Virus record (IMG/VR): IMGVR_UViG_3300028920_000272
Coordinates: 1-23,692 of that record
Source of the DNA: a virus
Direction: 5' to 3' (one strand)
Length of the DNA stretch: 23,692 bases
Positions within the stretch are counted from its first letter, which is position 1, and each line of letters opens with the position of its first letter. This document shows positions 194 to 19,154 of this stretch, piece by piece. Below the pieces are notes generated by a model, which saw only the letters and a program-made list of their open reading frames with translations, searched no databases and was not told the DNA's origin. The position numbers were made by a program, and so were the translations under genes.

Positions 194-216
194 CTATGTC
201 CCAAATTGGAACATAG
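194..216 (+). repeat. Dispersed palindrome, copy 1
   Basis: Arms CTATGTCCCAA and TTGGAACATAG flank a single central A. One arm position is mismatched (A where G would pair). It is followed by GCAAATTA, the same flank as in copies at 5624 and 19120. It is intergenic, about 80 bases downstream of the minus-strand terminator. Confidence 0.9.
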
Positions 217-284
217 CAAATTATCATACTTACTAACTTAAATCTTATTCTTGGGTTTAAGTAAAGAGGATAGTAGAATAACAA

Positions 285-326
285 AACAAAAAAAATCCCG
301 ACAGGTAAATTTAATCACCTGTCGGG
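285..326 (-). terminator. Intrinsic terminator of the minus-strand gene
   Basis: A perfect 10-bp GC-rich stem (297-306 CCCGACAGGT pairing with 317-326) encloses a 10-base loop. Read on the minus strand, it is followed at once by a T-rich run (complement of 285-296). On the plus strand the T-run is missing, so it acts for minus-strand transcription. It lies 45 bases past the stop of the gene at 372-839 and is the only textbook intrinsic terminator seen in the window. Confidence 0.9.
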
Positions 327-371
327 TTGTTGTGCAATCTGGTGAGATTGGTGCCGTTTTACTTCGCGGTT

Positions 372-839
372 TTACTTTGCGGTCTTCCCGACCATCGCCG
401 AGATTTGTTCCTGTAAGGTTTGCGGATTATCCCGCATGGCCTGTAAGACCATTTCCGCCGTTTCCAGCGGAATTTCCATCTGCTTTGCGAGGGCCTCGGC
501 GGTGATAATAGACGGGCCTCGTGACCTTTCCCTGTCCAGGAATTGCCTAACCGGAAAGCGCACTTTCCCGGCTTTTTCAAACTCTTCGAGAACTTTATCC
601 TCTTTCCATTGCGGCCTTATCGCAATGACGAGGGATTTTGCGGAAAACTTGTACAATTCTTGGATTTCCACGTCCGTGAAATCCAGAATGACGTCGAAAG
701 CATAAGCTTTCTCGTCATCTGCATTGTACTTCGTTTTCTGCGATAGAACGTAAGTGTTCTCGGCGGTCTTTTCTGTTTCTTCTACTTCTACTTCTACTTC
801 TTGTACTTCTTGTACTGTTTCAACAATTCTTCGTGCCAT
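372..839 (-). CDS. Hypothetical protein, lone complete minus-strand gene
   Basis: A 155-residue soluble protein whose family I do not recognise. The ATG at 839 follows a good ribosome site (GAGGT, same type as before 7848), and the gene ends at a strong intrinsic terminator, so it is a self-contained transcription unit. The first 25 residues are a low-complexity V/E/Q stretch encoded by a trinucleotide-like repeat (772-815). The middle is mixed alpha/beta, with motifs such as FDVILDF and VRFPVRQFLDRERSRGP. The C-terminal 45 residues look helical and UBA-like (EALAKQMEIPLETAEMVLQAM). It is oriented against every other complete gene and is richer in GC than the phage backbone, so it resembles a moron acquired from another replicon. 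A regulatory or host-interaction role would fit but is not shown. Confidence 0.8.
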   Translation of the reverse strand: MARRIVETVQEVQEVEVEVEETEKTAENTYVLSQKTKYNADDEKAYAFDVILDFTDVEIQELYKFSAKSLVIAIRPQWKEDKVLEEFEKAGKVRFPVRQFLDRERSRGPSIITAEALAKQMEIPLETAEMVLQAMRDNPQTLQEQISAMVGKTAK

Positions 840-976
840 GGTATTACCTCACTTATTGTATTTGTTACTTCTTCATGGCACCAATCCCACCATTCCAGAT
901 CGTCATAACCACCTGAACACTTTGCCAGGTGGCACCGGTAACTTCCCGGTATGTCAAAGATCAAACTTGCTTCTAC
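794..976 (-). pseudogene. Probable 5'-truncated gene remnant or TTG-start small gene
   Basis: On the minus strand a frame stays open for 60 codons from 976 (after a TAA at 979-977) to a TAG at 796-794. It has no ATG start; the earliest usable start is TTG at 964, with no clear ribosome site. The translation reads like real protein rather than noise: IPGSYRCHLAKCSGGYDD, then LEWWDWCHEEVTNTISEV. The frame opens close to where GC-rich sequence gives way to AT-rich sequence, as expected if an imported segment was cut inside a gene. Its end overlaps the start of the gene at 372-839 by 46 bases in another frame. A chance open frame remains possible. No function is recognised. Confidence 0.35.
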
Positions 977-1132
977 TTAATCTAATATTAAGCAGATACC
1001 TCCATCTTAATCATCCTGTTGTTAATTGCAAGGTTTTTCGTGCTGTTTTCATGCAAGTGAAAATAATTGTGTCGATTGGTGTTGATTTATTCATTCTGGC
1101 GGACCGACTCCATTATCTGTTAGGCACTAATG

Positions 1133-1181
1133 CCATCCTGGTAATAATCCATCCTGGTAATAATCTTATCCTGGTAACAAT
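1133..1181. repeat. 16-bp tandem repeat, three copies
   Basis: CCATCCTGGTAATAAT occurs at 1133-1148 and 1149-1164 perfectly, and as a degenerate third copy at 1165-1181. It lies in the non-coding stretch ahead of the terminase genes. No known binding motif is recognised. Confidence 0.8.
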
Positions 1182-1358
1182 TTCTACTTACCCACTTATT
1201 CTACTCGTCCTCTTGCCCTACTTGCACAATTATTTTACTACCTCTATTATTCTGCTAGGCATTTTCTAGCAAATGGGGGTAGTAGTCTTAATTCTTGGTT
1301 GGGTTGAAGCTTATACAAAATTTCTAAAATTTTCAAAAACTTAACACCAAAATGTGGT

Positions 1359-1452
1359 AATAGAAATAGTAATAGAAATAGTAATAGAAATAGTAATAGA
1401 AAGAGGAAGAGGAAGAAATATAGAAAGAGGAAGAGGAAGAGAGAGAGAGTAG
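1359..1452 (+). repeat. Microsatellite and polypurine tract
   Basis: Three perfect copies of AATAGAAATAGT (1359-1394) run into a GA-rich block with a 21-base direct repeat (1396-1416 and 1420-1440) and an uninterrupted purine run at about 1422-1449. Nearly all purines lie on the plus strand. This could form unusual DNA structure, be a packaging-initiation or recombination site, or simply reflect replication slippage. It lies about 150 bases before terS. Confidence 0.85.
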
Positions 1453-1465
1453 GAATGATCGTTTG

Positions 1466-1488
1466 CTTAGTCCCAAGTTGGGACATAG
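1466..1488 (-). repeat. Dispersed palindrome, copy 2 (inverted orientation)
   Basis: Arms CTTAGTCCCAA and TTGGGACATAG flank a central G. The TA/AT asymmetry and the left flank TTTGC, which is GCAAA on the other strand, show that this copy is reversed relative to the other four. Its reverse complement differs from the copy at 19120 only at the central base. With copy 1 it brackets the minus-strand island. Confidence 0.9.
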
Positions 1489-1599
1489 TAAGATAAATGG
1501 TGGTAATATTAAACCTTCGGTGTTAAAATAAACATTGCATAGTTCTTTCGCCTATGTTACCATTTGCGAAATAATAAGAAACTATAATTAGAGAATAAA

Positions 1600-2112
1600 A
1601 TGATTATTACAAAAGAAATGCTTTTAGAAGCTAATGAAAAAAGTGAGAAGTGGGAGTTGTCTAAACTCCAAGCTCTTCATCATGAGATTCTTAGGCTAAA
1701 AATTCAAGGCCTTTCTAATATAGACATTGCTAACATGCTTGACATTACTCCTGCTACCGTGGGAAATACTGTCAACTCTCGTCTTGGACAAGAAAAGTTG
1801 GCTTTAATGCAAGCCGCAGCTGATGATGAAGCAGTGGACTTTAAAAAAAAGATGACTAAGCTTCTTCCTAATATTATCAAAGCATGTGAAAATTTTCTTT
1901 CTGATGATCCTAGTAATATGACAGAAGATAAAATAAAGCTTGCTACTGCTAAATACGTGACTGGAGATATCTTAGGAATAAATGCTCCGGCCAAAATAGA
2001 TTCTCGTCATCAACACCAACATATGCACGCTATTCTAACTACCGATCAAATAGAAGAAATGAAACAAAGAGGTTTAGCTCAGGCTAAGCAAGCAGGACTA
2101 ATATCTCAATGA
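1600..2112 (+). CDS. terS: Terminase small subunit
   Basis: A 170-residue protein, typical length for a small terminase subunit, which binds phage DNA at the packaging start and hands it to the large subunit. Residues 38-61 form a helix-turn-helix (GLSNIDIANMLDITPATVG), followed by a helical middle suited to ring assembly. The C-terminal end is rich in His and Gln (HQHQHMH near residue 140), then helical with EEMKQRGLAQAKQAG. The start is ATG with only a weak AGAG ribosome site. The stop overlaps the start of terL as ATGA, a normal translational coupling. The call rests on the HTH plus its place directly before an unmistakable terL. Confidence 0.85.
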   Translation: MIITKEMLLEANEKSEKWELSKLQALHHEILRLKIQGLSNIDIANMLDITPATVGNTVNSRLGQEKLALMQAAADDEAVDFKKKMTKLLPNIIKACENFLSDDPSNMTEDKIKLATAKYVTGDILGINAPAKIDSRHQHQHMHAILTTDQIEEMKQRGLAQAKQAGLISQ

Positions 2113-3656
2113 ACATAATAGCTCCTAATACTCCAGATGATATAGCTGAAGTATTAGGCTATTGTTCTATTTCTACTCGCATAACTGCTAAAACTCTTTT
2201 TCCTGATATTTTTTGGACAGAGTTTTCTACTCTTCACGATCAAATATTCGATCTAATAGACTCCGACGAACAGAAGATTGCTATAGCCGCTCCTCGTGGT
2301 ATTGGTAAGACTACTATAGCTACTGCTTTAGCAGCAAAAGAAATCCTATTTCGTCAAGAGCATTTCATTGCTTATGTTATGAACTCTGCTACAGTCGCTT
2401 GTATGCAGACTGAGAATTTAAAGCATATCTTACTAACAACTCCTACCATTCGTCATTTCTTTGGTAATATTAAAAAAGATATTGCTACTGATGAATCAAT
2501 TCCACTAGATTCTTCATCAGACGAAACATTTGCTAAATCCGTTTGGACTGCTTTTGGTACTACTTGTGTACTTCCTCGTGGAGCAGGTCAACAAATTCGT
2601 GGCCTTAATTGGCGCTCACATAGACCTGGATTGATATTAGTAGATGATCTCGAAAATAAAAAAGAAATAATGTCAGAAGAAAATAGAAAGAAAATTAAAT
2701 CTTGGTTTTTTTCTGACCTAGTAAAATCAGTTGATCGGTATTCTAATAAATGGAAAATAGTCTACATCGACACACTAAAGCATGAAGATTCATTACTTCA
2801 AGAATTACTAGATTCACCAGATTGGGCATCTGTAACTTTATCAATTTGTACTGAGGATCTTGAAACTAATGCTCCTGAGTATATGACTACTGAGGAAGTT
2901 AAAAAAGAATACAAAGAACATGAGCGAAAAGGTTTACTTGATGAGTTTTATTCTGAATTTATGAATACGCCAGTTTCATTAGCAGATCAATCAGTAACTA
3001 AAGAACACTTTCGATACTACAAAGAATCAGAAAAAGAATTCCAAGAGGAAATTAGGAATAGAATAGAAAATATACTCATTGTTGACCCTGCTAAAACTGC
3101 TAAATTACAATCAGCTGATAGTGCTCTTATCTGCATTGGTCTTGATTTACTTGCTGGCAGGTACTTTGTACGAGAAGTGATTTCTGAAAAATTCTATCCA
3201 GATGAACTTTATGATGAAATATTTCGACTAACAACACTTTTTCAGATTAGTGTAGTAGGAATAGAAGTAACATCTCTACATGAGTTCATTGTCCAACCAA
3301 TAAAGAATGAAATGTACACTCGTTCTACTTTTTTTGAGCTTATAGAATTAAAGGCAGTAGGCGATAAAGTAGAAAGATTTAAACATACTATCCCATACTA
3401 TCGTCGTGGTTATATCTATCATGAAGAATCTCTTAAAGAAGGTAAATTAGAATCTCAAATTCTTAGTTTTCCTAAACCAAAACTATGGGATTGTATTGAT
3501 TGTATGAGTTACTTGCCAAAAATGCTAGAACTTGGTCAGAGATATTTCTCTTACTCTGGTTCTGACTTAGATGATGAAGATGAAATAGCAGAACAAGAAT
3601 ATCAAATTCTTGAAGAATCTTATGAGCCAGCTTTAACAGATTGGAGATGTGCATAA
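2109..3656 (+). CDS. terL: Terminase large subunit (ATPase and nuclease)
   Basis: A 515-residue DNA-packaging motor that docks on the portal, uses ATP to translocate DNA into the capsid and cuts it. The Walker A loop is at residues 61-69 (APRGIGKTT), Walker B at 175-182 (LILVDDLE), and a probable coupling motif follows near 217-226 (IVYIDTLKHE). The C-terminal RNase H-like nuclease begins near residue 320, with acidic residues D326 (LIVDPAK) and E386 (VVGIEVTSLHE). Length and domain order are standard for the family. It is coupled to terS at its start, and its stop shares one base with the next gene (TAATG). The portal gene lies about 8.6 kb downstream instead of next to it, which is an uncommon arrangement. 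Confidence 0.96.
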   Translation: MNIIAPNTPDDIAEVLGYCSISTRITAKTLFPDIFWTEFSTLHDQIFDLIDSDEQKIAIAAPRGIGKTTIATALAAKEILFRQEHFIAYVMNSATVACMQTENLKHILLTTPTIRHFFGNIKKDIATDESIPLDSSSDETFAKSVWTAFGTTCVLPRGAGQQIRGLNWRSHRPGLILVDDLENKKEIMSEENRKKIKSWFFSDLVKSVDRYSNKWKIVYIDTLKHEDSLLQELLDSPDWASVTLSICTEDLETNAPEYMTTEEVKKEYKEHERKGLLDEFYSEFMNTPVSLADQSVTKEHFRYYKESEKEFQEEIRNRIENILIVDPAKTAKLQSADSALICIGLDLLAGRYFVREVISEKFYPDELYDEIFRLTTLFQISVVGIEVTSLHEFIVQPIKNEMYTRSTFFELIELKAVGDKVERFKHTIPYYRRGYIYHEESLKEGKLESQILSFPKPKLWDCIDCMSYLPKMLELGQRYFSYSGSDLDDEDEIAEQEYQILEESYEPALTDWRCA

Positions 3657-5611
3657 TGACTATTAAAATAGATATTAACCAACCTACCGATGATGTTCTT
3701 GTGTCAGATTTGCCTGTTTATATTAGGGCTAATAAAGTTATTCTTCAAGAATTGTTATCTACTAATACTACTTCAACTAACACTCAAACTATAACTTTAG
3801 ATAATCCTGATATATTAGTAGATGGTACTGTTTCTATAGTATTTCTACGATCACCTTATGATGTTTCTATCAATACGGTAAATTTTGATAATTCAAGTTT
3901 AGTAATTTTATTTGCTTTGAATGATGGAATTACTATCTTAGATAATATTGGAAACATTAAACTTCAAGGTGATACTAACAATCCTGAATTTCCTATGGAA
4001 CAAGGTGATGTGTTAGTACTTCTTTGTCAAGATGGTGAAAATGCTACTGAAATTTATAGAGAGTTAAATCAAGATGCTCCATTAGGGGACGATGGTAGGA
4101 TAAGGACTATTCAAAAGCTATTAGTATCTGGCCATAATGTAGCAGATCATATAGAAGATGTTACTATTCATTTTACTATAGATGATAGTGATACTACCTC
4201 TCTTGATATTGTTTGGTCTGCTAGTAAATTAGAAAATAAATTTAATAATATTTATGGAAGTCAGATAGTTCCTGATTCTATTCCTCCAGTAGCACTAGAT
4301 TCCATTGATATTCCTAATGCAGATAAAGATGGATTTGTTGTAGTGTATAATCATTCTGCTAATCAATTCGAATGGGAAGATGTATCGGGTGTAGTTGGTA
4401 CTGACACTTATCGAGTAAAGTGGAATGAAAGTGATACTAATCAATTTTTAGACGAGAAACTTCCTATTATTGACTTTCCTAGTGCAGAGCATGATGGACA
4501 TTACTACACTGTAGATGCTGATGGAGTAGGTTATTGGTCTCCTGGATTACCTAAATTAGAAAATATCGGCCCTAGTGAGTTAATCAGAACTAACGATGAT
4601 AGTTCTGGATTTATTCCTGGAGCAGTATTGGATGATATTTCTTCTCATACTAATCAACTTCTTCAAGTAGCTGACAGTCCTGCTGGTAAAGATCAAGGTA
4701 GAATTATTCCTGGTGCTATTTTTCCTACTTTGAGTGAAATTAGTAATAAAGTAAGAGGAGATTCATTAGTAATAAACGAGGATAAGACAGGGTTTACTAT
4801 TAGATCAATAGCTTACGACACTGATCCTGTCTATATTTGGATTGATCCTACTAATGGTAATGATAGTGATAGTGGAACTGAATCTAATCGGCCAGTTAAA
4901 ACTTTTGCTAAAGCTAGAGATATTGGTGTAGCTCTTGCTGGTTATGCTGGTAGAGAACTTTATTTTTATATCGTAGATGGAATTCATACTAATAGTGATT
5001 CTTTTAGTGATGTATCTTTTGGGCCATCGAAAGTTACTATTAAAGGTGTTAGTCTTAATAGTACAAGATTGACAGTTTCAAATGGATTTAGATTCCTACC
5101 ATTTACTGATGTTCGTATGGAAGATTTTACAGTAACTGGTAATGGTGGTGATAATACTAATGGTTTATTTCTTAATAGTACGAGAGCTTATGTGAATGGA
5201 GTAGGATTTAATAATTTTTATACTGGTATACGAGTTGCTTATGGTTCACAGATGCGTACAGGCTCTAAAAATGTGTTTCTTGATAATAATACTTATGGAA
5301 TACGTTGTTATAATAATAGCAACGCAAATTTATTTGGAACACTTTTTACTAGTATAACTGCTAAAGATCCAGGAGAAGGGCGAGGTATTGTTTGTGATTA
5401 TAATTCTTCTGTTTTTGCTCACTATGTCTATATCTCTCGATTCTTTTATGGTGTTACAGTAGGTCGTCATTCATGGGTTGATGTTTCTTATGGTAAGATT
5501 TCTAATTGTTCTAATATTAGCTCTGTCCCTCTTTCTTTATCATCAGAAACTTCACCTACTAAACGAGCATTTAATAGTTATATCATGGCCCATGATACTG
5601 AGATTGAATAA
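3656..5611 (+). CDS. Tailspike or tail fibre with parallel beta-helix
   Basis: A 651-residue virion protein expected to bind the host surface. ATG 3656 was chosen because GGAG at 3643-3646 sits nine bases upstream and the ATG overlaps the terL stop; an upstream ATG at 3647 would be too close. The N-terminal half is rich in beta-strand, Asn, Thr and Asp, and carries fibre-like segments such as GHYYTVDADGVGYWSPG. From about residue 392 it has the entry motif of right-handed beta-helix proteins (WIDPTNGNDSDSGT, then P.KTFAKA) and short rungs with N/G turns to about residue 645. This fold is common in tailspikes that bind or cleave polysaccharide, but no catalytic residues can be assigned by eye. 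Its place directly after terL is unusual for a receptor-binding protein. Confidence 0.8.
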   Translation: MTIKIDINQPTDDVLVSDLPVYIRANKVILQELLSTNTTSTNTQTITLDNPDILVDGTVSIVFLRSPYDVSINTVNFDNSSLVILFALNDGITILDNIGNIKLQGDTNNPEFPMEQGDVLVLLCQDGENATEIYRELNQDAPLGDDGRIRTIQKLLVSGHNVADHIEDVTIHFTIDDSDTTSLDIVWSASKLENKFNNIYGSQIVPDSIPPVALDSIDIPNADKDGFVVVYNHSANQFEWEDVSGVVGTDTYRVKWNESDTNQFLDEKLPIIDFPSAEHDGHYYTVDADGVGYWSPGLPKLENIGPSELIRTNDDSSGFIPGAVLDDISSHTNQLLQVADSPAGKDQGRIIPGAIFPTLSEISNKVRGDSLVINEDKTGFTIRSIAYDTDPVYIWIDPTNGNDSDSGTESNRPVKTFAKARDIGVALAGYAGRELYFYIVDGIHTNSDSFSDVSFGPSKVTIKGVSLNSTRLTVSNGFRFLPFTDVRMEDFTVTGNGGDNTNGLFLNSTRAYVNGVGFNNFYTGIRVAYGSQMRTGSKNVFLDNNTYGIRCYNNSNANLFGTLFTSITAKDPGEGRGIVCDYNSSVFAHYVYISRFFYGVTVGRHSWVDVSYGKISNCSNISSVPLSLSSETSPTKRAFNSYIMAHDTEIE

Positions 5612-5623
5612 GTTAATAAGTTA

Positions 5624-5646
5624 CTATGTCCCAATTTGGAACATAG
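5624..5646 (+). repeat. Dispersed palindrome, copy 3
   Basis: Arms CTATGTCCCAA and TTGGAACATAG with a central T, one mismatch, followed by GCAAATTAA. It lies in the short gap between the tailspike and the lysis-like block, ending 14 bases before the next ATG. That gene has no Shine-Dalgarno sequence, so a hairpin here would sit exactly in its translation-initiation region. Confidence 0.92.
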
Positions 5647-5660
5647 CAAATTAAAATATT

Positions 5661-6077
5661 ATGACTCTTGCAGAATTAGCTTCAATACTATCTGCTAGTG
5701 CAGCTGTACTAGGTGTAATATCAGTAGCCATAAAATCTCAAAAAGATTATGGTAAAACTCAAAGAGAATTTGGGCGTAGGCAAGGAGCAGAGGAAGAGCG
5801 AGAGAAGTATGTTAATAAAGAATTTTTAGAAATTAGAAAAGATCTGAATAAAGGATTAGCTTCTATTAGAGATTATCATGATGCAATACATTTAGATCAT
5901 GATAATAATATAAAATGGCTGGATAAAAATAGTCAAGTAAGCCAGTGTGAAAAAGCTCAAGCACATATTATTGAATTACTCAGGCAAGAGATAGCTCCTA
6001 TTAGAGAATTACTTTCTAATTATAAAGAAATTCCTGAAAGAGTAGCTAAATTGGAGGCAAAAGTAAATGGGAAATAA
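5661..6077 (+). CDS. Single-TM coiled-coil protein, possible inner-membrane spanin or holin-associated protein
   Basis: A 138-residue protein with one hydrophobic segment at about residues 6-24 (ASILSASAAVLGVISVAI), then a long charged, helical, coiled-coil-prone region to the end. In tailed phages this layout fits an inner-membrane spanin, which spans the periplasm and pairs with an outer-membrane lipoprotein to fuse membranes in the last step of lysis. It also fits XhlA-like or antiholin proteins. The next gene is a lipoprotein that starts inside this gene in another frame, which is how many spanin pairs are arranged. There is no ribosome site before ATG 5661; the palindrome copy at 5624 lies there instead. 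The spanin reading is inference from layout. Confidence 0.55.
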   Translation: MTLAELASILSASAAVLGVISVAIKSQKDYGKTQREFGRRQGAEEEREKYVNKEFLEIRKDLNKGLASIRDYHDAIHLDHDNNIKWLDKNSQVSQCEKAQAHIIELLRQEIAPIRELLSNYKEIPERVAKLEAKVNGK

Positions 6078-6654
6078 AGTTAGTATTCTTATTGTACTTT
6101 GCATGTTCTTGTCTGGTTGTGCTCAGCCACCGCCGCCACAAGACCCTGCTATATTAGCTACTCAGCAAAAAATTATCGCTGAGTGTCGCATTTATTATCA
6201 ACAGCTTGAAGTAGCTGAGCTTAACCAGCTATCTACCTTATCAGATAAAGATCGTGCTATGGTATTAATGGTACGTACTATGGCTAATGCTATGACTGGT
6301 AATATTGATCCGTGTGCTATAGGTCAAGATGGTTATTGGCAAGCGTATGAAGCATACTATGCCGCTCATGCTAGAGAATTTGAGGCGGCTACTGGATTAG
6401 GTGGTACAATAGCTATTGGTGGTTTTACTTATGCCGGACTTAAATCAATTTTGAGCGGAGTAGGTGATACCAGTATAACTAATAATGGAGATGGTAACTC
6501 AGTAAGTGAGATTCGTTCTGACTATTCAGCGCGGCAATACTACCCTGGCGGAGATAACTCGGTTGTCCGTGGTAGCGGTGAAAGCGGTGGCTATAACCCT
6601 TCATTGGGGTGTAGTTATGAAACGTGGTTCAGCAATGGAGGCTTTTGTCCGTAA
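6067..6654 (+). CDS. Outer-membrane lipoprotein, possible outer spanin partner
   Basis: A 195-residue protein beginning with a lipoprotein signal: a short basic start, hydrophobic ILIVLCMF and lipobox LSGC with Cys at position 18, then PPPP, a proline-rich element seen in many outer spanins. No Asp follows the Cys, so outer-membrane sorting is expected. Its start lies inside the previous gene, with GGAGG at 6053-6057. It is far longer than ordinary Rz1 proteins. After a helical region there is a glycine-rich hydrophobic stretch near residues 118-137, then an N/G/S-rich tail ending in two Cys (GCSYETWFSNGGFCP). The lipoprotein call is firm; the spanin role is inferred from overlap and context. 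The DNA becomes richer in GC in the second half. Confidence 0.7.
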   Translation: MGNKVSILIVLCMFLSGCAQPPPPQDPAILATQQKIIAECRIYYQQLEVAELNQLSTLSDKDRAMVLMVRTMANAMTGNIDPCAIGQDGYWQAYEAYYAAHAREFEAATGLGGTIAIGGFTYAGLKSILSGVGDTSITNNGDGNSVSEIRSDYSARQYYPGGDNSVVRGSGESGGYNPSLGCSYETWFSNGGFCP

Positions 6655-7833: not shown

Positions 7834-7847
7834 GTAGAGGTAATATT

Positions 7848-8822: not shown

Positions 8823-11087
8823 ATGAACGGCTGGTCTCATAGAGCGGCGCTGACTATTTCAGCGGCCTATATAGACGAAGATTTAACCAACTGGACATTG
8901 GTTTTCGACCAAAGTTTTAATGCGGTTCTTACTCAGATAAATGGCCCGCTTGATTTAGACGGTACTCGTCCAGCCAAATCTGATGGTGGCGATATTCGAT
9001 TTGCTACCGATGCCGCTGGACTTACTGAGATAGCGGTCGATCTTAGAGAGTGGACGCCCAATAATGACGCGGCTTTAGCAACGTGTGAGATTGCCGTAAA
9101 AATCCCCTTTGTTGATGCATCCGCCAACACCACCATTTATCTGTTTTGGGGAAATTCGACGGCTGAAAAACCGTTGCCTGATTCGCTTTATGGGCAGTAC
9201 AACGCTTACGATTCCGACTATGAATTAGTCTACCCGCTGAGTGAAAACAGCGGATCACGCCTTGACCGGACAAGCAATCAGGAAACGCTGACGCCAAACA
9301 GTACGCCAACGGCTGTAGATGGCGTTGTCGGCAATGCAAACTCATTTGATGGTCTCAACGACTACTTGTATTCCGGCACGTCGAATCCGATAGAGGGCGG
9401 CAATACTTTTACTGTTGAGTGCTGGTCGAAAGCGCCGCGCAGTCAACCGAACGGGTACACTGACGCTTCTATAGTGACATTGGCAACAGCAGGCGTAACG
9501 TCTGACGCTTTAGGATTTTGGTGCGATGCAGCGTCACCCGCAAGCGGGCGTAGTAATTTGATAGCGTGGCTTGTTGCCGGTGAGCGCATTGAATCTGACA
9601 CCGGTCAATGGACAGACGATACGTGGGAACACTTCGCCGGAACCAGTAGTTCGACGACACTAAAGCTGTTGATTAACGGTGTAGAAGTAACAGACAGCCC
9701 GAAATCAGTAGCCATTGGCAATATTCGTTCTAACACCCGTTTTTTGGTCGCCGCTTGGGATTTTGACCTTGATCGGTATGAGCGAAACGGTGAAATAGAT
9801 GAACTTCGCATTTCCAGCACGGTTCGTTCGAACGCATGGATTGCGGCGAACTATCACAACCAACGTAATGCATCTGGCTTTTTGAACTTTGGCCCAATAG
9901 AGGATATTGGTGGTATAGCATATTCTTTTGATTATACTACAGAACTAATTGTTGAACGAGCTGTAACTATTCTGTATGATTTAAAATTAGACGTAGATGA
10001 TGGTTCTGGTATACCTATTTCTGTTTCTTATGATTTAAAATTAGACGTATCTACAGTATTTTTTACTTCTTATGATGTTAGCTTAAATGTAGCTATAATA
10101 TCTTTTACTTCTTATGATATTTTATTAAATGTATTTAATTCAATAGAGACTGATTATGATTTAAAATTAGACGTATCTACAGTATTTTTTACTTCTTATG
10201 ATTTAAAACTAGACGTATCTGATAATTCTGGTGTACCTATTTCTGTTTCTTATGATTTAAGTTTAAACATACTTTTTAATGTAGAAACTAATTATGATTT
10301 AAGATTAAATGTCTTATCTAATCTTGGTTATTCTTTTGACTATAATACAGTATTAGACGTAGTACGAAATATTGATACTTCATATGATATTAAGTTAATT
10401 ATAGACTATGGAATATCTACTTCTTATGATTTAAGATTAAATGTTCTCTCTATTTATGGACATTCTTTTGACTATAATACAGTATTAGACGTAATACGAA
10501 ATATTAATACTTCATATGATGTTTCTCTTACTGTAATTGATATTCTTAATGAATTAATTACTATTTGTGATATTGAATATTCTACTTCTAGTTTTAATGT
10601 AATCGATGTTAGATTATTAGATAGTGAAAGTTTTATTGAGTTTTTTAATTCTATAATATATATTTCTTATACGCCGATATTAGTTAATACTTGTGAATTA
10701 TTATTTTCAATTTCAGATATAGGCGTATATTTTGGTGTAAATAATTCTGAAAATTTATTTAGTACCTGTGATATATCATTTGATTTGCCTATAATTAATA
10801 GTATTCTTAATATATCACTATCACTTAATTCTATTATAGAATTTAATCTATCTGAAGTAGCTTTAGTAAGGCAGTTACTTATTTTAACTGATGATGTTAT
10901 TACTTTTAACACTACTAATATCCTACCATCAATATTACATGAGTTAGGTACAAACAGTGTTATAGTAATTAACACTAATTCTATCACAATTTATATTGAA
11001 AGATTTAATATTAGTAATATTAAATCATATGAAAATGTAACTGTAATAAGAAGCTATGAACCATTAATCTGTAGAGAAGGAGAATAG
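8823..11087 (+). CDS. Chimeric receptor-binding protein: DUF2341 and LamG domains plus 14-residue repeats
   Basis: A 754-residue protein in two very different parts. Residues 1 to about 120 resemble DUF2341 (WSHRAALTIS start, GGDIRFATDAAG, IYLFWGNSTA). Residues about 135-350 look like a LamG/concanavalin-type lectin domain (GNANSFDGLNDYL, FTVECWSKAP, DELRISSTVRS). Both are typical carbohydrate-binding modules. From about residue 371 to 580 there are about 13 beta-strand repeats of 14, 16 or 18 residues with core YDLKLDV, followed by an irregular N/I/S-rich beta region. The DNA changes sharply from GC-richer to AT-rich near 9905, at the domain border. It most likely acts as a tail fibre or adhesin. 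The upstream frame ends directly before its ATG; the nearest ribosome site (AGAGGT) is about 13 bases away. Confidence 0.75.
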   Translation: MNGWSHRAALTISAAYIDEDLTNWTLVFDQSFNAVLTQINGPLDLDGTRPAKSDGGDIRFATDAAGLTEIAVDLREWTPNNDAALATCEIAVKIPFVDASANTTIYLFWGNSTAEKPLPDSLYGQYNAYDSDYELVYPLSENSGSRLDRTSNQETLTPNSTPTAVDGVVGNANSFDGLNDYLYSGTSNPIEGGNTFTVECWSKAPRSQPNGYTDASIVTLATAGVTSDALGFWCDAASPASGRSNLIAWLVAGERIESDTGQWTDDTWEHFAGTSSSTTLKLLINGVEVTDSPKSVAIGNIRSNTRFLVAAWDFDLDRYERNGEIDELRISSTVRSNAWIAANYHNQRNASGFLNFGPIEDIGGIAYSFDYTTELIVERAVTILYDLKLDVDDGSGIPISVSYDLKLDVSTVFFTSYDVSLNVAIISFTSYDILLNVFNSIETDYDLKLDVSTVFFTSYDLKLDVSDNSGVPISVSYDLSLNILFNVETNYDLRLNVLSNLGYSFDYNTVLDVVRNIDTSYDIKLIIDYGISTSYDLRLNVLSIYGHSFDYNTVLDVIRNINTSYDVSLTVIDILNELITICDIEYSTSSFNVIDVRLLDSESFIEFFNSIIYISYTPILVNTCELLFSISDIGVYFGVNNSENLFSTCDISFDLPIINSILNISLSLNSIIEFNLSEVALVRQLLILTDDVITFNTTNILPSILHELGTNSVIVINTNSITIYIERFNISNIKSYENVTVIRSYEPLICREGE
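9933..10560 (+). repeat. In-frame 42-bp repeat array inside the chimeric fibre gene
   Basis: The array encodes tandem units of 14 residues (some 16 or 18) with core Y-D-L-K-L-D-V. Two 42-base units are identical in DNA (10029-10070 and 10155-10196). A higher-order duplication of 132 bases (44 residues, 14+16+14) is seen at 10293 and 10425, nearly identical over long stretches. All observed length changes are multiples of three, so unit gain or loss keeps the frame. Confidence 0.9.
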
Positions 11088-11089
11088 TG

Positions 11090-12204: not shown

Positions 12205-12208
12205 GATA

Positions 12209-12231
12209 CTATGTCCCAACTTGGGACATAG
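12209..12231 (+). repeat. Dispersed palindrome, copy 4 (perfect)
   Basis: Arms CTATGTCCCAA and TTGGGACATAG are perfectly complementary around a central C, followed by GCAAGAATTT. It lies in the 52-base gap between the tail-accessory block and the portal gene. A hairpin with a 10-bp stem and three-base loop could form in RNA, but only a weak, interrupted T-rich stretch follows. Confidence 0.95.
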
Positions 12232-12256
12232 CAAGAATTTAATTTAGGAATTTATC

Positions 12257-14215
12257 ATGCCTAGAATTATAACAGGAGTAGGACAGAGGAATGTTCTTAG
12301 TGCGGCTAGTACTAGAGAATATAAATACGAGTATCCTAACAAGTTAGATCTCAAGCCTAATTCTAAAATTCATAATAAACTAGTTGATTGTATTATTAAC
12401 TTAATTAATTCTAGTATTGATAATCTTGATGTTAATAGGAAAAGATATAAAAATCAGGATAATGTACTAACTTCTTATATTTATCAGGATGATGAAGAAA
12501 AAAGAATTAAGAGTAAAGATTCAAGAAAGCCAACTAGTATAGTATTTCCTTATTCTTATGCTATACTAGATTCTTTATTAACTTACATGTCCATGGCTTT
12601 TTTACGTGACCCTATTTGTAGGTATGAGCATGTTTCGGGAAAAGATTATTTAGGTGCAGTGTTACTTGAAGCAGTTATATCTCAACAAACTAGACGATCA
12701 AGAACTGCACTTGCATTGCATACTATAATGAAAAATGCTTTTTCTTATGGTGTTGGATATGGTGTAGTAGGGTGGGAAACTATTACTGGCAAGAGATCAA
12801 CTGTTACTGAGCCTAGAGCTAGGTTAGCTAACTTAGCAGCTGATACTCCAGATAGACAAAGAAGTAGTGTTACTATTTATGAGGGAAATAAATTATATCC
12901 TCTTAATCCTTATTTAACTTTTTCAGACCCTAATGTATCTGCTACTGATGTACAGTCAGGAGAATTTTTTGGGTGGTTGGAAAATACTAATTTCTTAGCA
13001 CTTAAAAATGAAGAGTTGAATAATGATAGTATGTTTAATGTAGAGTATGCTAAGCATCTTACTAACACTGTTTCTCAATTCATGGTAGATGAAGCAGTGC
13101 AAGCTAATGATGGTAGGAATGATGTTATTAATACTACTAGCAGTCTAACTAGACCTATTGATGTTCTTAAAGTTATTGTTAAATTTATTCCTAGCGAATG
13201 GGAAGTATTTAATTCTGATGAAGTAGAAACTTGGTTATTTAGGATTGCTGGAGATAGTTTATTAATTGGGGCAGAAAAGCTAGATCTAGACCATGGTAAA
13301 ATTCCTGTAGTTGCTACTGCTCCTGAGTATGATGGCAGAAGTGCTTCTCCTGTGTCTAAGTTAGAAACTCTTTATGGCTTACAGTCAGTCGGAGATTGGT
13401 TGTATAATTCACATATTACTAATGTTCGTAAAAGTTTAAACAACATGCTTATTGTTGACCCTAGTATGGTTAACATGAATGATCTTCGTGACCCTGCTCC
13501 AGGTAAGATGATTAGAACTAGAAAGCCAGCTTGGGGTAGAGGAGTAGATGGAGCAATTAAGCAATTAAAAATTGATGATATTACTCGACAAAATATTGGT
13601 GATGCAGGATTTATTCAAAGTGCTATGGAACTAGCTGCTGGTACTGATGGTTCTATGATGGGTAGTTTAAGAAATAGTGGGCCAGAAAGATTGACAAAAG
13701 GAGAATTTCAAGGTACTAGAACATCTGCTATTAGTCGTTTGGAAAGAATTGCTTTGATTATTAGCTTACAACTAATGCATGATTTGAGTGATATGTTTGC
13801 TACTAACACGCAACAGTTTATGTCTAATAATACTTATATCAAGATAACGGAGGGACTTGAGCAAGATTTAATTAAGCAAGGATTTGAAGTAGAGAATAAA
13901 AGATTAAAAGTTAAATTTCAAGATTTATTAATTCCTTATGATGTTAAGTTAAAGGATGGTAGTATTCCTGGCGGTAATTTTTCAGATGGTTGGATGGATT
14001 TGTATAAGTTAGTTGTCGAAAATGAAGCACTGTCTAGTCGGTTAGATATATTTAAATTGTTTAAGTTTATAGCTTATAACTTCGGCGCTAAGAACGTAGA
14101 TGAATTTGAACTAAAGCCACAAGTAATGCCAGACCAGCAAGTAGAAAATATGGCTCAGAGAGGAGACATAGTTCCTTTTAATCCAACAATTCCAGGAGCA
14201 GAAAATGCGATCTAG
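12257..14215 (+). CDS. Portal protein
   Basis: A 652-residue protein that forms the ring at the unique capsid vertex through which DNA enters and leaves. The sequence has the layout of podovirus-type portals: an N-terminal part with YSYAILDSLLTYMSMAFL, a helical segment with FSYGVGYGVVGWE near residue 160, a stretch NPYLTFSDPNVSATDVQSGEFFG, a wing-like part, the stem and tunnel region with WLYNSHITNVRKSLNNMLIVDPS, and a long helix following GPERLTKGEFQGTRTSAISRLERIA. Length and order with scaffold and capsid genes downstream agree. The ATG at 12257 has an AGGA site. Its end overlaps the next start by 11 bases. Confidence 0.9.
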   Translation: MPRIITGVGQRNVLSAASTREYKYEYPNKLDLKPNSKIHNKLVDCIINLINSSIDNLDVNRKRYKNQDNVLTSYIYQDDEEKRIKSKDSRKPTSIVFPYSYAILDSLLTYMSMAFLRDPICRYEHVSGKDYLGAVLLEAVISQQTRRSRTALALHTIMKNAFSYGVGYGVVGWETITGKRSTVTEPRARLANLAADTPDRQRSSVTIYEGNKLYPLNPYLTFSDPNVSATDVQSGEFFGWLENTNFLALKNEELNNDSMFNVEYAKHLTNTVSQFMVDEAVQANDGRNDVINTTSSLTRPIDVLKVIVKFIPSEWEVFNSDEVETWLFRIAGDSLLIGAEKLDLDHGKIPVVATAPEYDGRSASPVSKLETLYGLQSVGDWLYNSHITNVRKSLNNMLIVDPSMVNMNDLRDPAPGKMIRTRKPAWGRGVDGAIKQLKIDDITRQNIGDAGFIQSAMELAAGTDGSMMGSLRNSGPERLTKGEFQGTRTSAISRLERIALIISLQLMHDLSDMFATNTQQFMSNNTYIKITEGLEQDLIKQGFEVENKRLKVKFQDLLIPYDVKLKDGSIPGGNFSDGWMDLYKLVVENEALSSRLDIFKLFKFIAYNFGAKNVDEFELKPQVMPDQQVENMAQRGDIVPFNPTIPGAENAI

Positions 14216-14444
14216 CATAGAAGATTTAGAGATTTTTGAAACTGGCAAAATTTGGAAAGATATGCAAGATGAATTTGATGAATGGGAGTTACAACAACTA
14301 GGTGAAATAAGACAAGCTAAGGGCGATTTAGACCTTGGTAATGTACAAGGAGTATTAGCAACTATATCTAATCTTAGAGATTTGATGTATATGCTAAAAG
14401 ATAAATGTCAATCAGAAAAGGAGAATGAAAATGGGAACGAGTAA
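14205..14444 (+). CDS. Small helical protein between portal and scaffold
   Basis: A 79-residue, strongly charged and helical protein (DMQDEFDEWELQQLGEIRQA, later ISNLRDLMYMLKDKC) ending in a Glu/Asn-rich tail. It starts inside the portal gene and overlaps the scaffold gene, so all three are translated as a unit. Short proteins in this place are frequent in podovirus head operons and may assist portal or scaffold assembly, but the family is not recognised. Confidence 0.75.
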   Translation: MRSSIEDLEIFETGKIWKDMQDEFDEWELQQLGEIRQAKGDLDLGNVQGVLATISNLRDLMYMLKDKCQSEKENENGNE

Positions 14445-15174
14445 TGAGCAAGTAAGTGACTTTGATTTTGGTGAAATTCTTGTATCAGCTGCTAGTGGCG
14501 GTGAAGAAGAAGTAGTTGAAAAAGAAGAGCAAGAAGTAGGTGGTGAAGTTAATGATGAAGTAAAGAAAGAAGAGCCATCAGAAGTAGAGCTTCTTAAAGA
14601 TCAACTTAAAGAGAAAGATAGTGTTATTGCTAATCTTTCTAAGAGAGAAATAGGTAAAGAAGAAGAAAAAAAAGAATCTCAGGAGCCCGAAGTTCAAGTA
14701 ACTTGGACGGATGCTAATTACATTGATGAAGATTTTGATTTTAACACTCTTACTCCTGAGAAGTTTAATTCTATCCTTAATCAAGTAGCTAAATCAGCTG
14801 CTGAAAATGGAGCAAGAACTGCTGTTGCTAAGTCTCTCTTAGCACTTCCAGAAGCTGTAAAGCATACAGTGAAAGTGCATTCTGATATTACTACGGCAGT
14901 TAATAAGTTCTATAAAGATAACTCTGATTTGAAGGAGTTTAGTAAGGTAGTTGCAACTGTAGCTCAAGAAATTGCTAGCGAAAATCCTGAGTTAACACTA
15001 GATGAATTGTTTGCCAAAGCTGGTGATGTTACTAGAGGTAGGCTTAATATAGCTAAAAAAACAAAAGCAGCACAAAACAAAGCACCTGCCGTAAATGTTG
15101 GTGGTCAACAGATTAGAAAAGGTGCTCAGGTATCTGGCTTAGAGAAAGAGATCGGCGAACTTCTTGATAGCTAG
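14431..15174 (+). CDS. Capsid scaffolding protein
   Basis: A 247-residue, highly acidic and helical protein located directly before the major capsid gene, the usual place for a scaffold that guides procapsid assembly and is then expelled. ATG 14431 is chosen because GGAG (14420-14423) is seven bases away; ATG 14425 would be only one base from it. The N-terminal third is Glu/Lys-rich and low complexity (EEEVVEKEEQEVGGEVNDEV). The middle has FDFNTLTPEKFNSILNQVAKS, and the C-terminal part is basic (IAKKTKAAQNK), as expected for capsid binding. No protease domain is visible. Confidence 0.82.
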   Translation: MGTSNEQVSDFDFGEILVSAASGGEEEVVEKEEQEVGGEVNDEVKKEEPSEVELLKDQLKEKDSVIANLSKREIGKEEEKKESQEPEVQVTWTDANYIDEDFDFNTLTPEKFNSILNQVAKSAAENGARTAVAKSLLALPEAVKHTVKVHSDITTAVNKFYKDNSDLKEFSKVVATVAQEIASENPELTLDELFAKAGDVTRGRLNIAKKTKAAQNKAPAVNVGGQQIRKGAQVSGLEKEIGELLDS

Positions 15175-15216
15175 TAATTATATTTCAACCTTTAATTATT
15201 TAATAGGAGAATTAAA

Positions 15217-16512
15217 ATGAGTTATTTTGTAGGTATGCGTGGTACTGGAGATTGGGTAACTGATGAACGTCCTAAATCATGGCGTGAGGGAATTCTTCGA
15301 CTCTATCCTCAAGGTAAGGCATTGATTACTGCTATCATGTCTAAAATGTCATCAGAAGTAGTAACTGATCCTGAGTTTTATTGGTGGACTCAGACAGTAG
15401 AAGCAGTATCGGGAGCTATTACTAATATTTACACTAATGCAGCTATGACTACTGCTTATACTACTGGCGGTTCTCAAGGTGATTTGCTTTATTGTAAAGT
15501 AGCTCTTGCCGAAGCTAACAAAGTACGTCCTGGTCATCAAATAGTTTTACGATATACTGATGATTCTCGTGTTGATGTGACTGGTAAGGTTACTAACGTA
15601 GTTCGTAATGGTGCTAACAGTCGGCTTGATGTTAAGCTACTTGAGGATGATGATAATTCACCTGACTACGATCTTTCTGACGCTAATCACTTTATTGTGA
15701 TTGGTAGTATCAATCCTGAGGGTGGTCAGATTCCTGAGGCAATTACTAGGAATCCTGCTAAGATTTATAATCTTACTCAGATTTTTAGAACTCCTCTTGA
15801 GATCACTCGTACTGCTCGTAGAACTAAGCTTCGTACTAAAGAGGCTTATAATGAAGCTAAGAAAGAGGCATTGGAAATGCACTCTATCGAAATGGAAATG
15901 AATACTTTGTTCGGTCAGCGATTGGATACTATTGGTGACAATGGTAAACCTGAGCGAACTACTATGGGTATTATTCCTTTTGTTCGTGCTAATGCACCTG
16001 CTAATGTGGATGACTTTAAGTTTTCTACTAACATAAATGCTGGCGATACTTGGCTTGAGGGTGGTAAGATTTGGTTGGATACTATGTTTGAGCAACTTGC
16101 TCGATATGCTAATATGAGCGATATGGTGTGGTGCTGTGGTTCTACTGCATTGCTTGCTATCAATCGTCTTGCAGCAGCTAATTCAGAAATCCAGCTTGTT
16201 CCTACTTCTCCTGCTTACGGGCTTCAAGTAGTTAAGTGGATTACTCCTTTTGGTGATGCTAATCTTATGACTCATCCTCTGCTTAGCCAAGGAGTTACTA
16301 CTCGTAAAATGATGGTTGGTATTACTCCTAAATCTATGAAATTTAAATACATAGATGATACGTTCTTTAAGAACGATCCTGAGAAAGAAGCTGGCGAAGG
16401 TAGTTATGATGCTACTAAAGAGGAGTTTCTTACTGAGGGTGGTTATGAGTATCAGCATCCTGAGCATTTTATGATTCTTGATGGTCTTGGTGATACTAAT
16501 CTTGTAACTTAA
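15217..16512 (+). CDS. Major capsid protein
   Basis: A 431-residue protein between scaffold and connector genes, with a strong AGGAG ribosome site. The region FRTPLEITRTARRTKLRTKE followed by EALEMHSIEMEMNTLFGQR and ERTTMGIIPFVRA resembles the SU10/DUF5309 type of HK97-fold capsid protein, where a long spine helix precedes G-rich segments. Length is normal for the fold without a large decoration insert. No N-terminal prohead protease site is evident, and a separate scaffold is encoded, so assembly probably goes without delta-domain cleavage (inference). A short hairpin follows the stop. Confidence 0.88.
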   Translation: MSYFVGMRGTGDWVTDERPKSWREGILRLYPQGKALITAIMSKMSSEVVTDPEFYWWTQTVEAVSGAITNIYTNAAMTTAYTTGGSQGDLLYCKVALAEANKVRPGHQIVLRYTDDSRVDVTGKVTNVVRNGANSRLDVKLLEDDDNSPDYDLSDANHFIVIGSINPEGGQIPEAITRNPAKIYNLTQIFRTPLEITRTARRTKLRTKEAYNEAKKEALEMHSIEMEMNTLFGQRLDTIGDNGKPERTTMGIIPFVRANAPANVDDFKFSTNINAGDTWLEGGKIWLDTMFEQLARYANMSDMVWCCGSTALLAINRLAAANSEIQLVPTSPAYGLQVVKWITPFGDANLMTHPLLSQGVTTRKMMVGITPKSMKFKYIDDTFFKNDPEKEAGEGSYDATKEEFLTEGGYEYQHPEHFMILDGLGDTNLVT

Positions 16513-16525
16513 TAGTTACTTTAAT

Positions 16526-16554
16526 ATGAGGAGGGGCTAATAACTCCTCCTCAT
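16526..16554 (+). promoter_or_regulatory. Hairpin with SD-like and anti-SD arms after the capsid gene
   Basis: A perfect 9-bp stem, ATGAGGAGG pairing with CCTCCTCAT, encloses an 11-base loop, in the 50-base gap between the capsid and connector genes. No T-tract follows, so it is not a textbook terminator. The left arm contains AGGAGG and the right arm CCTCCT. The connector ATG at 16563 has only GGAG two bases before it. The hairpin could lower connector translation, stabilise capsid mRNA or be a leaky terminator. Confidence 0.6.
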
Positions 16555-16562
16555 TTGGAGCT

Positions 16563-17321
16563 ATGAACTTTAAGCAAATTAGAGAGAGATTTTTAGAATC
16601 ATCCGGTAGAACTGATTTAGTTGATACTGATACTCTAGCCGATTTTGGTGCAGGGTATTATATTAATGCTGGTCAGCGATGGTTGGATGTTAAGTTTATA
16701 GATGCTAATATGGAGGGTAGATTTTTTGCCCAACTGCCAGAAAAAACTTATACATTTAATATACCATTTTGTAGGGCTATTAATAGCGTATGGTATAGTG
16801 ATGCTTCTAATAATACCTATGGGCCACTTAGTAAAAAGACACTAGCAGAACTTAAACAAGAATTTCCTCTGCCTTGGCGATCACAAGAGCCAGGAACACC
16901 ATTGTATTATGCGCCTACTAATAATATGTTAGTTCCTAATGCACAAAATTTTAGACTAAAAGACCCTAGAGGTTATCCAGAAGCTACTACTAAAATGAAT
17001 GTTAAGTATGCTAATGTTCTTACTGGTGGAAATTTGGGAATTAATAGTATTACTATCTTACCAATTTGTTCTAATATAATTGACGTAGAAGTATGGGGAT
17101 TGTTTCATTCTAATGTTCTTACTGAAGATGAAGATACTAGCTGGTGGTCAGTTAATTATCCTGAAGCTCTTATTAGAGCAGGACTAAGAGAAGTAGAAAT
17201 AGATCATCGTAATACACAAGGAGTAGAAGATTGGACTAGAGCTATTGCTAGTTTAATAACTGACCTAGTAGACGATCAAGCATATGAACTATCTGTTGGA
17301 ATTAATCAAATGCGAGGATAG
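16563..17321 (+). CDS. Head-tail connector (adaptor) protein
   Basis: A 252-residue protein just after the capsid gene, the standard place for the adaptor that extends the portal to the tail. The N-terminal helices MNFKQIRERFLESSGRTDLV and YYINAGQRWLDVKF are typical of podovirus head-tail adaptor proteins, which begin with a short helical domain and continue with beta strands. The C-terminus is helical (NYPEALIRAGLREVEIDHRN, then DWTRAIASLITDLVDDQ). The ribosome site is unusually close to the ATG, but the N-terminus looks natural, so the start is kept. The following gene begins two bases after the stop. Confidence 0.72.
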   Translation: MNFKQIRERFLESSGRTDLVDTDTLADFGAGYYINAGQRWLDVKFIDANMEGRFFAQLPEKTYTFNIPFCRAINSVWYSDASNNTYGPLSKKTLAELKQEFPLPWRSQEPGTPLYYAPTNNMLVPNAQNFRLKDPRGYPEATTKMNVKYANVLTGGNLGINSITILPICSNIIDVEVWGLFHSNVLTEDEDTSWWSVNYPEALIRAGLREVEIDHRNTQGVEDWTRAIASLITDLVDDQAYELSVGINQMRG

Positions 17322-17323
17322 TA

Positions 17324-18685
17324 ATGCGTGAATTTGAGTATATATTTGATGTAGGATTGCTCAAGGGAATAGGTGAGCGTAGGCAGTATGTAGTAGAACA
17401 AACACTAGAAGAATGTCATAATTTTAAACCTATCGGTCAAGGGTTGGTAGCAAAAGAGTCTATAGAATTTCCTGCTAGCTTGGATGTTTTTAGGTCAGTT
17501 AGTGATGTTGAAAGAGATTTGGGATTTCCTAGGATAGTAGATATTTCTAATAAATGTTATTTGCTTGATTATTATAGTCCCCAATTTAATCCTTTTATGG
17601 GAGCAGTTTATATTGTTAATAAATCTACTAATATTTTAGGCCAACGATTTGAAGTAACAAATTATCCTGACCTAGCTGATTTTGGAAAATTTACAGTAAT
17701 TACTTCTAAGGGAGAGAGTTATTTAAGTGGAGTATATTCTGATGACTTTAGTAATACTAATCAGTTAAATATAGATCATTCTTTAGGTTATTGTTGTTGT
17801 AATTTTAGAGGACAATTAGTATCTTCTTCTAGTAGATATGCTATTTGGAGTAACATAGGTGATGTTAGTTTTAATAAAGTAAAAAACACTTCTGGAGATA
17901 TTTATATTCCTAGTAGTAATGATGTTGGAATAGTGGGAATAAAAGAAGTAGATTCTGGAATAGTGATAGCTACATTTGATGGTATTTGGGCTTTGATTCC
18001 AGTAGTATCTCCTGCACCTACTTATGGTCTTAGAAGAATATATCCATCTGGAGTACAGACTGTCAGAGCTATTGAGTCTAATAATAAAGAAGCATTACTT
18101 ATTACTTCTGATGGTAAGTTACTATATATTTCAGGTGATTTTCAAGTAAAAGAATTTGATTTCTCTCATTTGTTTGGGAGTGAGGCGCATAGTATAGTTT
18201 ATAGTAAAGTTGATAATCTTTGGTATATTTCGAGTAGTAAAGCTGGATATTGTTTTAATCCTCAGTTTGGATTGAGTAGTATTAATAAAACAGTTACTGG
18301 AATATACTCTGATGCTCTTATTGGTTGTGGTAAAGTATTAAATGAGTGTAAGGGAATAATTCAGACTGCTCCGTTTGATCTAGGCTATTCTGGAATAAAG
18401 ACTATTACTGGAATCGAAATTGGAAAAAATCTTGGTATAGCGTATGTTAGTGTTTTATTCAGGGCTAATCAAAAAGAAAAGTGGAAAGAGTCTAAAAGTA
18501 TTAGGTTGAATAATTTTAACGCTGTTGGATTTCCAGTTGCCGGCAGTGAGTTTAAAATAAGACTAGAAGTGCTTAATCCTAGTGAAGCGAATATTGATTA
18601 TATAAAAGTAAGATGGAAAATGAGTGATCTTAGAAACTTAAGAGGAGTTTATTCTCCGCCGCCTAGAGGTCAGTATGCTAGTTAA
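17324..18685 (+). CDS. Beta-propeller-like tail hub or stabilisation protein
   Basis: A 453-residue beta-rich protein with repeated strand blocks such as GIVIATFDGIWAL, ALLITSDGKLLYISG and NLWYISSSKAGYCFNP, recalling propeller blades. In podoviruses the gene after the adaptor often encodes a tail tube, nozzle or DNA-stabilising tail protein (P22 gp10 type), so a role in closing the portal channel is likely. The ATG has a GAGG site six bases upstream. A run of three Cys (GYCCCNF) is unusual. The assignment to a fold is by eye and by position. It overlaps the next gene by 11 bases. Confidence 0.55.
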   Translation: MREFEYIFDVGLLKGIGERRQYVVEQTLEECHNFKPIGQGLVAKESIEFPASLDVFRSVSDVERDLGFPRIVDISNKCYLLDYYSPQFNPFMGAVYIVNKSTNILGQRFEVTNYPDLADFGKFTVITSKGESYLSGVYSDDFSNTNQLNIDHSLGYCCCNFRGQLVSSSSRYAIWSNIGDVSFNKVKNTSGDIYIPSSNDVGIVGIKEVDSGIVIATFDGIWALIPVVSPAPTYGLRRIYPSGVQTVRAIESNNKEALLITSDGKLLYISGDFQVKEFDFSHLFGSEAHSIVYSKVDNLWYISSSKAGYCFNPQFGLSSINKTVTGIYSDALIGCGKVLNECKGIIQTAPFDLGYSGIKTITGIEIGKNLGIAYVSVLFRANQKEKWKESKSIRLNNFNAVGFPVAGSEFKIRLEVLNPSEANIDYIKVRWKMSDLRNLRGVYSPPPRGQYAS

Positions 18686-19154
18686 ACTATTACCTGAACA
18701 AGTAGCTAATTTTTGGGAAGTGCTAGGTTCTCAGATAGCTCCAGTGTTAGCTCCAGTAGTAGATGTTACTCCTGATGTGATGAATAATATCTTAAGTTCA
18801 ATAATGGTAGGTAAGATGGATTGTTGGGCGATAGTTACTAAGACAGAAAATTTAGTTAAGTTAAATGGTACAATACTTACTGCTATAGTTGTTGATGATT
18901 TTACTGAAGTTAGAAATTTACTAATATACTCCATGTATGGTAATGGCAATATTTCTATGCAAGACTGGCAAAAAGGAAAAGAAACTTTAGTTAAGTATGC
19001 TAAAAGTAAGAATTGTAAAAAGATAGTTGCTTATACGAGTAATGATAATATTAAAAATCTTGCCGATAGGCTTGGAGCAGTTACTAGCGAAGTATTTATT
19101 TCACTTGATGTGAATAATGCTATGTCCCAATTTGGGACTAAGCAAATTAATTAA
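18675..19154 (+). CDS. GNAT-like fold protein
   Basis: A 159-residue protein with the outline of a GNAT acetyltransferase fold: an N-terminal helix, hydrophobic strands (CWAIVTK and TILTAIVVDD), a YSMYGNG turn, a helix with WQKGKETLVKYAKSKNCKKI, strand VAYTSN, helix IKNLADRLGA and a closing strand EVFISLDV. The acetyl-CoA pyrophosphate loop (Q/RxxGxG/A) is not clear, so enzymatic activity is doubtful. Similar proteins occur among podovirus tail genes without known substrate. The ribosome site GAGGT lies inside the preceding gene. Its last residues (AMSQFGTKQIN) are encoded by a dispersed palindrome copy, suggesting that the element was inserted over the original end. Confidence 0.55.
   Translation: MLVKLLPEQVANFWEVLGSQIAPVLAPVVDVTPDVMNNILSSIMVGKMDCWAIVTKTENLVKLNGTILTAIVVDDFTEVRNLLIYSMYGNGNISMQDWQKGKETLVKYAKSKNCKKIVAYTSNDNIKNLADRLGAVTSEVFISLDVNNAMSQFGTKQIN
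19120..19142 (+). repeat. Dispersed palindrome, copy 5 (inside a gene end)
   Basis: Arms CTATGTCCCAA and TTGGGACTAAG with a central T, followed by GCAAATTAA. The AT to TA change breaks the pairing of two bases and also turns an in-frame-looking TAG into AAG. This copy overlaps the last codons of the GNAT-like gene and lies 31 bases before the next gene. Confidence 0.9.

Follow-up and report, generated by a model that had tools for sequence, protein, structure and literature searches.

Phage-specific symmetric 23-bp sites dispersed between the genes of a clade of environmental podophages

Comparison of related genomes indicates that a large clade of environmental podophages carries dispersed 23-bp palindromes, located for the most part between genes, the features of which are those of phage-specific, symmetric sites read at the level of duplex DNA. 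The element was noticed in a fragment of 23,692 bases deposited in IMG/VR (hereafter the window, meaning the whole stretch of DNA that was analyzed), and has since been followed through a complete relative and the wider clade. The reading that we favor, to which we assign a probability of roughly 0.45, is that a symmetric DNA-binding protein encoded by each phage recognizes these sites and that the bound sites serve as boundaries between transcription segments. No published description of the element was found in the open-access literature, which is not proof that none exists.

The window is closely related to Desulfofustis phage LS06-2018-MD01 (OP947158.1, labeled L008 here), a circular and complete genome of 44,443 bases. 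Specifically, the terminase and capsid proteins of the two are more than 99% identical, and DNA alignment gives 95-99% identity across most of the window and 82% in its first 976 bases; the two sequences are mosaic with respect to one another. They also diverge around a series of tandem repeats of approximately 42 nt (window 9975-10540) that lie inside a lectin-like gene (8823-11087) and encode YDLKLDV-like repeats. The minus-strand gene at window 372-839 (L008 41735-42211), which is without a Pfam match, is annotated in OP947158 as a host RecBCD nuclease inhibitor, and the late arm ends with a very large virion protein (L011 3700-10218, L008 15927-20660) in which there are weak LPD38 or ADP-ribosyltransferase (ART-PolyVal) domains that differ by phage. 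Roughly 127 bases are duplicated across the ends of the "circular" L008 record (the sequence at 17 recurs at 44333, and that at 97 recurs at 44413), probably as an assembly overlap. The life cycle of LS06-2018-MD01 has been predicted to be strictly lytic, and its host, based upon CRISPR spacers, to be Desulfofustis sp. PB-SRB1 (PMC10370329).

Table 1. Palindrome copies and reference genes in the window, with the corresponding palindrome positions in L008.
Feature	Window position	Strand	Context	L008 position
Palindrome copy 1, CTATGTCCCAAATTGGAACATAG	194..216	+	3' flank CAAA	42973
Palindrome copy 2, CTATGTCCCAACTTGGGACTAAG on minus strand	1466..1488	-	3' flank CAAA	41277
Palindrome copy 3	5624..5646	+	49-nt gap between ORF 3641-5611 and ORF 5661-6077	37109
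Palindrome copy 4, perfect arms	12209..12231	+	52-nt gap upstream of portal gene; flank CAAG	29966
Palindrome copy 5	19120..19142	+	in last 35 nt of ORF 18675-19154	23055
Terminase small subunit (TerS), has HTH	1600..2112	+
Major capsid protein	15217..16512	+	query for finding the clade
Portal gene	12257-14215		3' of palindrome copy 4

Exactly the five copies listed in a preliminary description of the window were found (Table 1), each with zero to two mismatches, and 100 dinucleotide shuffles of the window contained none. That description credited all five with shared arms and with a 3' GCAAA flank. The arms do recur within the two mismatches given above, although both are perfect only in the copy at 12209, and the flank is present in four copies but reads GCAAG in this same one. 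Judged by the 3' flank, four copies are oriented along the plus strand and that at 1466 along the minus strand, and no U-tract follows any copy, as had been stated. Copy 2 lies 111 bp before the start of TerS and upstream of the minus-strand island. Copy 5 falls inside one ORF, 31 nt short of where the next (19174-20058) starts, and thus not every copy is strictly intergenic. One window copy reads MSQFGTKQ in frame.

The proposed search of the rest of the genome at up to three mismatches, with a shuffled control, was carried out in the complete L008 and recovered nine copies, at 245, 2247, 7684 and 15470 in addition to the five positions in Table 1, which alignment matches to the five copies of the window. 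None was found in shuffled L008 and none is expected by chance. Only one weak match, with six mismatches, was seen beyond these nine, such that the palindrome family is sharply bounded in this genome. Relative to the deposited annotation, five of the nine copies lie wholly between genes, three overlap the end of a gene by no more than 36 nt, and the remaining copy is inside a 46-codon hypothetical ORF.

Relatives were collected by means of the capsid and terminase proteins, with alignment of the former yielding 559 or more related sequences from IMG/VR, and their long contigs were searched de novo for palindromes. In each of at least 33 related phages a private 23-bp palindrome, with an 11-1-11 layout, is present in 6-24 copies, compared with about 1-5 copies, and occasionally 7-8, in block-shuffled controls and zero with a reversed-pattern control; these counts omit the doubtful motif families of the most A/T-rich contigs (G019, G033), and many of the clade contigs are partial. 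While the layout is constant, the half-sites differ, being CTATGTCCCAA in the window phage and CTATGGGGA, GATTGTTTAAA or CTATCACCAAT in others. Close relatives share the same or nearly the same half-site, yet some phages with core proteins that are 75-80% identical have different ones, and a terminase relative at 45% identity is without the window motif but has its own palindrome, CTTTGATCAAT N ATTGATCAAAG, in up to eight places. The various half-sites share an outer C or G and, near positions 5-7, a G or T, and the center of the sites is rich in A/T. Consistent with each phage having its own palindrome sequence, which explains the result, an exact scan of IMG/VR with the window motif returned no match.

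Nearly every long clade contig tested carries such sites. No palindrome family was found in contigs G021 and G023, nor in the more distant relatives Mel-JY34, VS-ABTNL-3, Kuura, PaMx41 and MW202796; similarly, a search at other spacer lengths revealed none in four distant relatives or in G021 and G023. The 23-bp pattern also occurs in nine Clostridia genomes (L212-L220), where those matches that were examined lie inside ParB-like genes and encode LSQLGTK; the DNA there spells out SQLGTK, and these matches are taken as coincidence rather than as true sites.

Copies occupy codirectional, divergent and convergent junctions, the majority being between codirectional genes, where (n=252) the palindrome begins a median of 3 nt past the upstream stop codon and ends a median of 17 nt short of the next start codon. 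A simple ORF rule was used to call the genes of metagenomic contigs, so junction counts are approximate: codirectional junctions are occupied in 23% of cases, convergent ones in 35% and divergent ones in 33%, a difference that is not significant (p=0.06 for convergent) and that therefore does not specifically favor a terminator-like role. Certain locations are nonetheless preferred, namely the 3' side of the capsid gene (22 of 33) and the point at which the replication and structural arms converge (16 of 27), often with the copy flanked by a stop codon on either side, and no copy was found beside CL20 or 5' of the methylase. The earlier suggestion that the copies mark module borders is thus only partly right: some junctions are favored, but overall the copies are distributed near-evenly, with a median spacing of about 2-6 kb and, in 31 of 33 phages, a greater evenness than that of position-matched random junctions (mean z -1.40, SE 0.17). 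Intrinsic terminators, in turn, are more abundant over background in palindrome-less relatives (mean excess 3.6 vs 1.0; p=0.03, with small numbers), and one is found just after the capsid gene in the palindrome-less L013 and L015. The window phage itself uses an ordinary terminator at least once, a canonical one at 318-352 on the minus strand (CCCGACAGGTGATTAAATTTACCTGTCGGG followed by a T run) that ends the minus-strand gene 372-839.

Several alternatives for what the sites do can be weighed against these data. That the palindromes act as RNA hairpins, either processing sites or terminators, is suggested by their form, near-perfect inverted repeats at 3' ends and in gaps that are probably transcribed. 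Hairpins, however, would be predicted to show compensated arm changes and tolerance of G.U pairs, and the opposite was found: the arms form 2245 Watson-Crick pairs, while swapping right arms among the sites of each phage gives 2358 (sd 13; z about -8.5), and C.A mismatches, counted on the sense strand, outnumber G.U pairs (188 vs 126). This anti-compensation holds for high-scoring sites and upon removal of positions 11 (flanking the center) and 3 (z -6.1). The arms are thus less complementary within a site than between the sites of one phage, a result that strongly disfavors hairpins and, together with the missing U-tract, leaves this explanation very unlikely; the preliminary description was correct that these are not ordinary terminators, and its suggestion of RNA-processing sites is not supported. 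Variation of this kind argues for half-sites that vary independently, as they would in duplex DNA read by a protein dimer, and perfect symmetry may even be selected against. A role in driving middle and late genes, as promoters or activator sites particular to each phage, would agree with the preponderance of copies between codirectional genes, a short distance before a start codon, and with the need of such phages for late promoters, no phage RNA polymerase having been recognized and no RNA polymerase domain having been found in the large virion protein. Still, among 273 oriented sites from 34 contigs no base within 60 nt is conserved at a fixed distance except for 2-3 edge bases, sigma70-like promoter scores of the flanks equal those of shuffled controls, and no -10 element, whether at a fixed distance or enriched near the sites, was found, indicating that the site is self-contained. 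Given in addition its two-fold symmetry, and copies between converging stop codons, where a promoter would serve no gene, we consider this role improbable.

Similarly, recombination linkers that allow modules to be exchanged, another of the earlier suggestions, would account for the location of copies at gene borders in a window and an L008 that are mosaic. The private palindrome of each phage, however, offers no shared homology for exchange between lineages, and the even spacing is not tied to variable modules, making this explanation highly unlikely. The prospect that phages have borrowed the sites of a host regulator has precedent, in that phages do use such sites and CtrA control of alphaproteobacterial phages is the subject of a published paper, but it is exceedingly unlikely here: among GTDB genome contigs, none from Desulfobacterota matches the motif, which gives no evident sign of a host regulon, and half-sites differ between phages whose core proteins are about 75-80% identical. 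The main rival is an architectural role, in which a phage protein that bridges or condenses DNA would land at the regularly spaced sites and so organize or segregate the phage DNA, with intergenic location reflecting nothing but avoidance of coding sequence. Across a widespread lytic podophage clade, such evenly spaced symmetric anchors for a phage-encoded DNA-organizing protein would be the phage counterpart of bacterial chromosome-organizing sites, with a sequence that changes fast between phages within a fixed 23-bp geometry. Even spacing, the small influence of junction type, the absence of a promoter signature and the parallel with MatP, an RHH protein that acts at a short palindrome, all agree with anchors of this sort, whereas the non-random placement of copies relative to genes (the preference for the capsid 3' side and the avoidance of CL20 and of the methylase 5' side) does not, and we regard this account as fairly unlikely.

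According to the favored reading, that of boundaries recognized by a phage-encoded protein, each site would be bound by a homodimeric or tetrameric DNA-binding protein, the specificity of which would drift from phage to phage. The earlier proposal of operators for a phage regulator agrees with what the sequences suggest in this regard, namely symmetric, DNA-level sites of phage-specific sequence between genes. Less certainly, the bound sites would act in either orientation as boundaries at which transcription is blocked or one genome segment is insulated from the next, namely downstream of the major capsid gene, where the replication and structural arms converge, and at operon borders, with a logic comparable to that of the stoperators of mycobacteriophage L5. 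The favored junctions and the larger terminator excess of palindrome-less relatives speak for this reading. Against it, a phage predicted to be strictly lytic would need timed release from any block of its own late genes, and even spacing fits an architectural role too.

Ortholog clustering and iterated profiles yielded three conserved DNA-binding candidates for the protein that may bind these sites, TerS, CL17 and CL24, none of which was convincingly linked to the half-sites in a Mantel test. TerS is judged an unlikely binder: its partial correlation with the half-sites fell from 0.37 to 0.15 once doubtful contigs were removed, its recognition helix is unchanged among phages with different half-sites, and it is also present in palindrome-less phages. 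CL17, a small RHH-like protein, was likewise set aside as the specificity determinant, its strand being nearly constant across different half-sites. Adjacent to CL17 is a second small gene, CL20 (the two occupying L008 9872-10337), which is absent from the palindrome-less G021 and G023 and from distant relatives and co-occurs with palindromes in near-complete contigs. The annotated ParB-like partition protein (L008 10342-11634), conserved in the clade, proved to be a ParB_N domain fused to an N6/N4 DNA methylase and is not an obvious binder of long palindromes.

CL24 (WBK39749.1; L008 862-1191), a second RHH-like protein encoded in the early arm, small and fast-evolving, is the best candidate binder, though not statistically linked to the sites. 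It is found in nearly all near-complete palindrome phages, with highly variable predicted strand residues, and a protein of its type also occurs in the palindrome-less G021 and G023. After removal of relatedness, RHH strand distance and half-site distance were uncorrelated (partial r=0.02). Within one subgroup an R/W difference in the CL24 strand matches a GAT/GTT difference in the half-site in 8 of 9 phages, a pattern seen by eye among phages too few and too closely related for it to carry weight. The RHH assignment is based on a predicted strand-helix-helix pattern; in the AlphaFold model of the CL24 member from G034, an extended N-terminus precedes putative helices at 13-25 and 33-50, where block pLDDT is about 95 or more. 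A PDB fold search with the RHH-like protein gave as its top match a MazEF-mt1 chain that is not significant (E=1.9), and no credible Pfam match was obtained.

Most of what is known of dispersed binding sites in phages comes from temperate ones that have an immunity repressor. The present sites occur in a phage predicted to be lytic, within an abundant and mostly uncultured clade, and each lineage has different sites, so that dozens of natural specificity variants of what would be one protein-DNA system make both the binder and its code directly testable. The sites point to a means of organizing either transcription or DNA with few intrinsic terminators.

Several known elements resemble these palindromes in part. 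The class III promoters of T7, approximately 23 bp long, likewise recur along the genome in the narrow spaces between genes, but they are asymmetric and oriented whereas the palindromes are symmetric; RNase III sites are RNA hairpins, and the palindromes fail the arm-compensation test. The matS site of Escherichia coli, bound by the ribbon-helix-helix (RHH) protein MatP, is also a dispersed short palindrome with an odd center that recurs at intervals, and an RHH-like protein is present in the phages, albeit not linked statistically to the sites. However, matS is a bacterial chromosomal element of 13 bp with one fixed sequence, unlike the 23-bp phage sites, the sequence of which varies and the binder of which is only a candidate. 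Another is SPBRE of the Bacillus phage SPbeta, a repeated intergenic element whose binder came to light only decades after the motif itself, and which is now known to be bound by MrpR, a repressor with a tyrosine-recombinase fold (PMC10516654). SPBRE is a 15-bp motif of prophage promoter regions (PMC10516654), while the palindromes described here are 23 bp and without promoter association. As far as the cited accounts describe them, the stoperators of L5 and other Cluster A mycobacteriophages are 13-bp sites of temperate phages that are bound by the immunity repressor, that are scattered through a genome in as many as about 30 copies, with a consensus differing between phages, and that, in the known case, stop elongation when bound (PMC6550527, PMC9283540). 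Stoperators, the known element closest in logic, are asymmetric and mostly in one orientation; the palindromes, being symmetric, longer, found at any junction type, and carried by a phage predicted to be lytic in which no repressor was recognized, are for reasons of symmetry and orientation not classed among them. What the two have in common is many dispersed copies in short intergenic gaps and a sequence that is specific to each phage.
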